Shown here piece after piece: positions 56,801 to 57,506 of a stretch of 64,000 bases of DNA. How positions within the stretch are numbered: position 1 is the first letter of the stretch; each line of letters begins with the position of its first letter. The DNA is taken from NCBI RefSeq assembly GCF_042477335.2, contig NC_091255.1, positions 49,516,501 to 49,580,500 on the forward strand, given 5' to 3'. The position numbers were made by a program, and so were the translations under genes. Below the pieces are notes generated by a model. That model saw only the letters and a list, made by a program, of their open reading frames with translations. It did not search any database and was not told the DNA's origin. The DNA comes from Ovis canadensis (lineage: Eukaryota > Chordata > Mammalia > Artiodactyla > Bovidae).

Positions 56801-57506
56801 ATGGCAGCAGATGTTAATACATTTTGGTCATGTGTTATCTGATAGCAGAGTATAACTCTGGAAAACGAAAAACTGTAAAACTCTAAATATTGTCTCAACA
56901 ATTTCATTCAAGAAATTTTCTTATTCTACAAAATATTTTTCAGTATAAAATGAACTAAAATATTAAAGTTTAGCAAATGGCTGTTGCTTCGAGAACATCA
57001 ACTCACAATGTGATTATACATGTTCCTAAGAATCTTACCTTTTGCTGGAGCTCCTCAATGGTTGCATAGTAGGATAGGTAGTCAGGACATATGACCGGGA
57101 GTTCTTTGTTACATTCTTCCTGGATTTTACACTCCAATGCAGTGTTCTCTCGTTCCAGCATTTGTACCTTTTCCAGGTAGTTAGCAAGGCGATTGTTCAA
57201 GATTTTCATGGTCTCTTTCTCATTACTGTTGATGCCACCATCACACCAGCCACAATCATCCAGAAAGGGACAGGTGTTGAAGTTGCTGATTAAGCAGAGA
57301 GGGGTGAGAGAAAAGCCAGGAGTTGGTTTGTAGTCCAGGGACTGGAGAGTTCTCAGAACATGGCCAGTTGGTTGACAGCTATTGGCTTTAAGACCACCAT
57401 GCTGGCAGCTGGTGTTAGGAAGGATGGTTGTTAAATTTGTAATCCCAGAACAGCTTTGGCATGGTGTTGTGGAAGACATAGTTGTTGTACAGCCCTTGGT
57501 ATCCAG
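50611..57506 (-). CDS. KRT39: KRT39, type I hair-type keratin 39 (whole coding span, 7 exons; ATG start lost)
   Basis: Acidic keratin of the hair and filiform-papilla type that pairs with type II keratins. Seven exons join in frame (468+83+157+162+126+221+262 nt), 492 codons when counted from the position of the human start. The head is residues 1-102 with nine cysteines. The helix-initiation motif begins at 103 ([12 protein letters not shown]). The rod ends with TYRSLLES at 395-402, and the tail of about 86 residues ends [20 protein letters not shown] and onward. All introns obey GT/AG and exons 2-6 have canonical lengths. The codon at the human initiator position is CTG (57506-57504), not ATG. 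The next in-frame ATG is codon 10 (57479-57477), giving 483 residues. No internal stop or frameshift is seen, so loss of function is not implied. A TATA box lies about 120 nt upstream. KRT23 is the next gene downstream. Confidence 0.93.
50873..52242 (-). other. KRT39: KRT39 intron 6
   Basis: 1.37 kb. A forward MIR relic at about 51130-51235 (gctggtgacctcagataagt, ttctgtagaatggatatagg) is the only repeat recognised. Confidence 0.75.
52243..52463 (-). CDS. KRT39: KRT39 exon 6 (end of rod)
   Basis: 221 nt, the canonical length, acceptor ctgtgatag, donor GTATG. It encodes [20 protein letters not shown] through the helix-termination motif [11 protein letters not shown] and ends in phase 2. Confidence 0.95.
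52464..53789 (-). other. KRT39: KRT39 intron 5
   Basis: 1.33 kb with T-runs at 52546-52563 and 53649-53663 and a forward MIR relic at about 53150-53400 (acaagttacttaatgcctca). Confidence 0.75.
53790..53915 (-). CDS. KRT39: KRT39 exon 5
   Basis: 126 nt, the canonical length, acceptor gtgtttcag, donor GTACCTG. It encodes [19 protein letters not shown] through LQAQHRM in coil 2. Confidence 0.95.
54030..54191 (-). CDS. KRT39: KRT39 exon 4
   Basis: 162 nt, acceptor ctccttag, donor GTAGGG. It encodes [20 protein letters not shown] through [15 protein letters not shown] (linker 12 and start of coil 2). No stop in frame. Confidence 0.93.
54192..54911 (-). other. KRT39: KRT39 intron 3
   Basis: 720 bp. 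A ruminant L1 3' tail at 54333-54402 (ttagcctccaattaaaataa) sits in it, forward strand. Confidence 0.8.
54912..55068 (-). CDS. KRT39: KRT39 exon 3
   Basis: 157 nt, acceptor ttttatag, donor GTTAGAG. It encodes [20 protein letters not shown] through [10 protein letters not shown], the end of coil 1B. The [20 protein letters not shown] segment is typical of hair-type acidic keratins. Confidence 0.95.
55275..55349 (+). mobile_element. BovB 3' tip in KRT39 intron 2
   Basis: gtccatgaggtcgcaaagag through a (ACTGA)n tail; 75 bp only. Confidence 0.85.
55477..55751 (-). mobile_element. BovA2 SINE in KRT39 intron 2
   Basis: Reverse copy with two monomers. The direct repeat AGCAAGCTT flanks it at 55468-55476 and 55752-55760. 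It has the same orientation as KRT39. Confidence 0.93.
56105..56187 (-). CDS. KRT39: KRT39 exon 2
   Basis: 83 nt, acceptor aattctag, donor GTAAGCCC. It encodes [20 protein letters not shown] and onward, nearly identical to human KRT39 as recalled. It forms part of coil 1B. Confidence 0.95.
56188..57038 (-). other. KRT39: KRT39 intron 1
   Basis: 850 bp; an old L2/MIR-like end (tggtgcccaataaatatttt) near 56500-56565, otherwise nothing recognised. Confidence 0.7.
57039..57506 (-). CDS. KRT39: KRT39 exon 1 (head and coil 1A)
   Basis: Reads (L)[18 protein letters not shown] and onward, through the helix-initiation motif, to EELQQK at donor GTAAGATT. The start is placed at the CTG homologous to the human ATG. 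The first ATG, at 57479, would drop nine residues of the head only. The open frame extends upstream to about 57641, but no ATG occurs there and that part is at or above the predicted start of transcription. Confidence 0.85.

Follow-up and report, generated by a model that had tools for sequence, protein, structure and literature searches.

CUG-initiated proteoforms are described as established for MYC and POLGARF, where the CUG adds an upstream extension to the protein (PMC9082881). The efficiency of non-AUG starts, held in an older view to be ≤5–10% of AUG, reaches 20–40% for EIF4G2, R3HCC1 (printed R3CCH1) and POLGARF, and up to 60–70% for POLGARF with both stem-loop and context. The best non-AUG initiator is predicted in the same source as (C/A)(A/G)(C/A)(A/C/G)CUGGAU, with a G at +4 described as critical (PMC9082881). 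Sole initiation at a non-AUG codon is known in very few cases, to which several likely ones are added (PMC9789052). Related systems rely on downstream AUGs: an in-frame ATG soon after a weak or lost start leads to a shorter, otherwise identical protein (PMC7397870). Among keratins, the curated KRT39 genes of human, dog and horse have seven exons each (PMC5573215) and encode 491, 483 and 492 residues, respectively (Table 1 therein). KRT39 transcripts are reported from the skin of goat and sheep (PMC9179306, PMC12711495, PMC12153449).

A KRT39 gene of Ovis canadensis lies on the minus strand of the 64,000-nucleotide stretch analysed here (hereafter the window, whose numbering is used throughout). 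Its model has GT/AG borders at 6/6 introns, compatible phases, 492 codons, a TGA stop and no internal stop, and is distributed over seven exons:

57039..57506, minus strand: exon 1, counted from the CTG; head and start of the rod (Pfam Filament, E 5.7e-15)
56105..56187, minus strand: exon 2
54912..55068, minus strand: exon 3
54030..54191, minus strand: exon 4
53790..53915, minus strand: exon 5
52243..52463, minus strand: exon 6
50611..50872, minus strand: exon 7, with the TGA stop

The canonical splice sites and the uninterrupted frame bear out the initial annotation, which held the gene to be otherwise intact over its seven exons. Goat KRT39 qPCR primers with a published product of 169 bp (PMC9179306) fit the spliced model, giving 169 bp across exons 6–7 against 1539 bp of genomic DNA. 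The type I rod, the seven exons and a place in the type I keratin cluster with KRT23 and KRT40 on either side are those of a KRT39 orthologue; an ATG initiator at the human position is replaced by CTG, and the start codon is without bearing on orthology. The neighbours are a KRT23-like gene at about 19–5 kb in the window and a KRT40-like exon ∼17 kb upstream of KRT39, names that we assign provisionally from gene order together with sequence. The KRT23-like type I keratin gene (4747–19405, minus strand) has an ordinary ATG at 19405 in the context GGAACC ATG A. Intron 4 of KRT39 is very short (114 bases, 53916–54029, minus strand), and the first codon of exon 5 is ATG (Met), where the human comparison sequence has Ile. 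The whole window also contains the 9-base motif GTCCGACTC at 14 places (9 on the plus and 5 on the minus strand), a motif that we take to be typical of ruminant Bov-tA-type SINEs.

The human KRT39 protein used for comparison is a working sequence whose length of 491 agrees with the value in Table 1 of PMC5573215. Against this sequence, 375/492 alignment columns are identical, with an uneven distribution: 8/9 in residues 1–9, 40/81 in the rest of the head (10–90), 273/315 residues in the rod and 54/87 columns in the tail. The two genes share their seven exons and are identical at all eight residues of codons 2–9. Human KRT39 begins with ATG and has Asn, not Met, at codon 10, whereas the gene studied here has CTG and Met at these positions. 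The elements around the start are as follows:

57506-57504, minus strand: CTG codon opposite the human initiator Met1, from the sequence and the exon 1 alignment to the human comparison sequence
57480..57503, minus strand: codons 2–9 (GAT ACC AAG GGC TGT ACA ACA ACT), encoding DTKGCTTT as in residues 2–9 of the human comparison sequence
57479-57477, minus strand: codon 10, the first in-frame ATG (−3 A, +4 T) and probable main start
57517..57519, minus strand: second CTG, out of frame and 13 nt before that of KRT39, with −3 A and +4 G
57623..57629, minus strand: nearer TATA-like box, TATATAA; predicted leader to the CTG of ∼94 nt
57682..57688, minus strand: farther TATA-like box, TATATAA, from the sequence scan
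57675..57677, minus strand: TAG, the first stop encountered when the CTG frame is followed upstream, the frame being open in between

The minus strand reads CACACT, the CTG, codons 2–9 and then the ATG, which lies 27 nt downstream of the CTG in the same frame. The CTG at the human initiator position and the codon-10 ATG with its A at −3 were both claimed in the initial annotation, and sequence and alignment confirm them with their coordinates. The scan from 57900 to the CTG agrees with a further claim, that the leader lacks an ATG: none occurs in any frame between either TATATAA and the CTG, the last one upstream being at 57707, beyond both boxes, and the next in any frame at 57479. The leader length of ∼94 nt assumes a transcription start near 57600.

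An in-frame ATG might instead be supplied by a spliced or upstream-initiated 5′ exon. Without splicing, an in-frame start further upstream is barred by the TAG at 57677. Exon 1 is closely preceded by a TATA-like box, and the genes curated for human, dog and horse (PMC5573215) each have seven exons, as many as the model here. One acceptor-like site, at 57547, speaks for such an exon. Scored with a crude matrix of approximate frequencies it reaches 1.0, against 0.5 for the weakest real KRT39 acceptor and 1.6 to 8.0 for the other five. About 9% of all AGs on the minus strand score as high, a figure that is weak either way because two of the six real acceptors fall at similar quantiles (0.076 and 0.111). 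A 5′ exon of this kind is highly improbable.

The CTG is read from a single assembly, and ATG and CTG are one base apart, so that an assembly error, or a minor allele in a species that usually has ATG, deserves attention. The site is not within a homopolymer. A whole-genome search with exon 1 (2.97 Gb assembly, 42 contigs) gives eight matches, namely one full match, which is the gene itself, and seven partial paralogues; with a single full match, no second KRT39 copy with ATG is seen. An ATG occurs at a plausible start position in 7/7 paralogue loci (L002–L008, of which L008 contains 73 Ns) and in the KRT23-like gene of the window, and no general fault is therefore apparent. We regard an error or a minor allele as unlikely. 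Beyond this assembly, an exon 1 peptide-pattern scan of a genome-contig collection returned 196 stretches, none of them a relative, and a whole-protein scan of the same collection returned 13, with one weak match (40% over residues 264–310) on a bacterial contig. In viral contigs, the exon 1 peptide pattern gave 18 stretches and no relative, and an exact nucleotide pattern across the start codon gave 0. The ND2 protein encoded on C42, the 16,463-base mitochondrial contig of the assembly, differs at 6/347 residues from chain 5lnk_N and at 30 from 5ldw_N, which we take to be the ovine and the bovine protein, respectively; the host is accordingly a caprine close to domestic sheep, though its ND2 is not identical to that sequence. 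A separate observation concerns the mitochondrial ND2 C-terminal family: of its 17 matches one (L015) is on C42, and the remaining 16 are elsewhere in the assembly. The latter include L011–L014 and L016; three on contig C3, within 550 kb and with equal scores, are probably duplicated nuclear copies.

Loss of the ATG could also mark the onset of decay, the CTG being a first lesion in this lineage. Cetaceans and manatee are reported either to carry K39 as a pseudogene or to have lost it (PMC5540548), so KRT39 is dispensable in some mammals. Against decay stand the absence of any further inactivating change across the seven exons, a rod with the high identity to the human protein given above, and a nearby in-frame ATG. 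Table 1 of PMC5540548, with its columns read as presumed here, lists zero type I pseudogenes for sheep and one, unnamed, for cow. Incipient decay is accordingly a very unlikely explanation.

The codon-10 ATG provides a simpler outcome. It is the next AUG, is in frame, has A at −3 and precedes the essential domain, lying 83 codons ahead of the rod-start peptide NSNEKET (residue 93). Translation from codon 10 would give 483 residues, and from the CTG 492. These numbers are the lengths of dog and horse KRT39, respectively, in Table 1 of PMC5573215, so a shorter KRT39 head may be ordinary. By this match dog KRT39, too, may be translated from codon 10; the likeness is one of length alone, and dog could also have reached 483 residues through an internal deletion. 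The paralogues point the same way. From first ATG to rod motif they count 99 (L002), 95 (L003, KRT40-like), 94 (L004) and 62, 62, 59 and 62 (L005–L008), and the 93 residues from KRT39 codon 10 to the rod motif thus fall within the family range. The internal start does lose C6, as had been pointed out, but this is minor, since 8/9 head cysteines remain. In the cases of PMC7397870 the first start is a weak-context AUG, whereas in KRT39 it is no longer an AUG; the shorter, otherwise identical product would be common to both.

We consider it probable that KRT39 lost its ATG in this caprine and was rescued by the nearby codon-10 ATG, which would yield the main product, with minor initiation at CUG. 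A one-base change would have converted an ancestral ATG, postulated from human KRT39, into CTG. Ribosomes scanning the ∼94-nt leader would encounter no other ATG and reach the CTG first. A fraction of them may initiate there and most would continue to codon 10. A CUG start would still be decoded by initiator Met-tRNA. The predicted main product is a 483-residue keratin with nine head residues fewer, the minor one the 492-residue form; the in-frame ATG at codon 10 would be what makes loss of the original start tolerable. Sequence, reading frame, start context and the intact gene are directly observed; the transcription start, the division of ribosomes between the two starts and a working short head are inferred. 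The initial annotation had set a codon-10 start and CTG use side by side. The scanning rule and the 483-residue dog protein now favour codon 10, and the CTG retains a place as the second option.

The surroundings of the CTG (−4C, −3A, −2C, −1T, +4G, +5A, +6T) are better than first described, when the −3 A and the +4 G had been called favourable. Compared with the predicted optimal non-AUG initiator of PMC9082881, they agree at 9/10 letters and differ at −1, where KRT39 has T. With this favourable context and a predicted leader without upstream AUG, a minor long form is plausible. With −1 disregarded, 2/1249 CTGs on the minus strand of the window match this initiator at every letter, and one of the two matches at −1 too; on the plus strand 1/1354 does so, −1 included. 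These counts overstate the rarity of the context, because the A at −3, the G at +4 and the GAT that follows the start codon were probably already in place when the start was ATG. KRT39 shares the CUG start with MYC and POLGARF, and the favourable context with POLGARF; MYC is without the −4C found here. CTG use in KRT39 is only predicted, and its CTG stands in place of an AUG, where those of MYC and POLGARF lengthen the protein upstream (PMC9082881).

If the CTG were the main or only start, the full 492-residue KRT39 would be kept. The context, the known efficiencies of 20–40% and, for POLGARF, up to 60–70% of AUG (PMC9082881), and the conservation of codons 2–9 in 8/8 residues relative to human KRT39 all favour this. 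Several features argue against it. No stabilising hairpin was found downstream of the CTG, where the 60-nt fold is weaker than its shuffles (z +1.37; z +1.53 from +12 to +60), although downstream structure is helpful and not obligatory for CUG initiation. For comparison, the assumed leader is more stable than its shuffled versions at z −1.82, and z is −1.08 once the start region is included; neither value is strong. The codon-10 ATG, with A at −3, follows only 27 nt further on, and sole non-AUG initiation is very rarely known, even with the several likely cases added (PMC9789052). The out-of-frame CTG at 57519, as read from the sequence, opens a 34-codon frame and would compete for scanning ribosomes. 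The CTG is thus improbable as main or only start, and its exclusive use is unlikely.

Conservation of the codons between the two starts bears on the age of the change. In neutral simulation, the probability that codons 2–9 stay 8/8 identical without constraint is 0.61, 0.37 and 0.19 at 0.03, 0.06 and 0.10 substitutions/site, and falls to 0.086, 0.039 and 0.004 at 0.15, 0.20 and 0.35. Together, the identity and these low probabilities suggest that the ATG was lost recently or that the codons are still translated. From sequence, it is therefore probable that the loss is recent or that the CTG is used more than a 'minor form' would imply. It is tempting to go further and propose that the change from ATG to CTG made KRT39 a dual-start gene that yields similar quantities of the long-headed and the short-headed form, codons 2–9 being still selected as protein. 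We hold this to be rather doubtful and retain rescue at codon 10, with minor CUG initiation, as the preferred account.

No discussion of the KRT39 start codon was found in the open-access papers covered by the searches, nor, among the matches listed there and judged by title and abstract opening, a paper on keratin initiation at CUG. The main text of PMC9789052 contains neither KRT nor keratin, PMC5573215 is without 'start codon', and PMC4720366 names K39 solely in a reference. The start replacement in KRT39 adds a further example to phenomena already known. It matters for annotation, as an ATG-only pipeline will assign this KRT39 the short head. More broadly, it offers a clean natural start-codon replacement in a gene whose product, in wool, is easily sampled, and lets one ask how a gene outlives the loss of its ATG.
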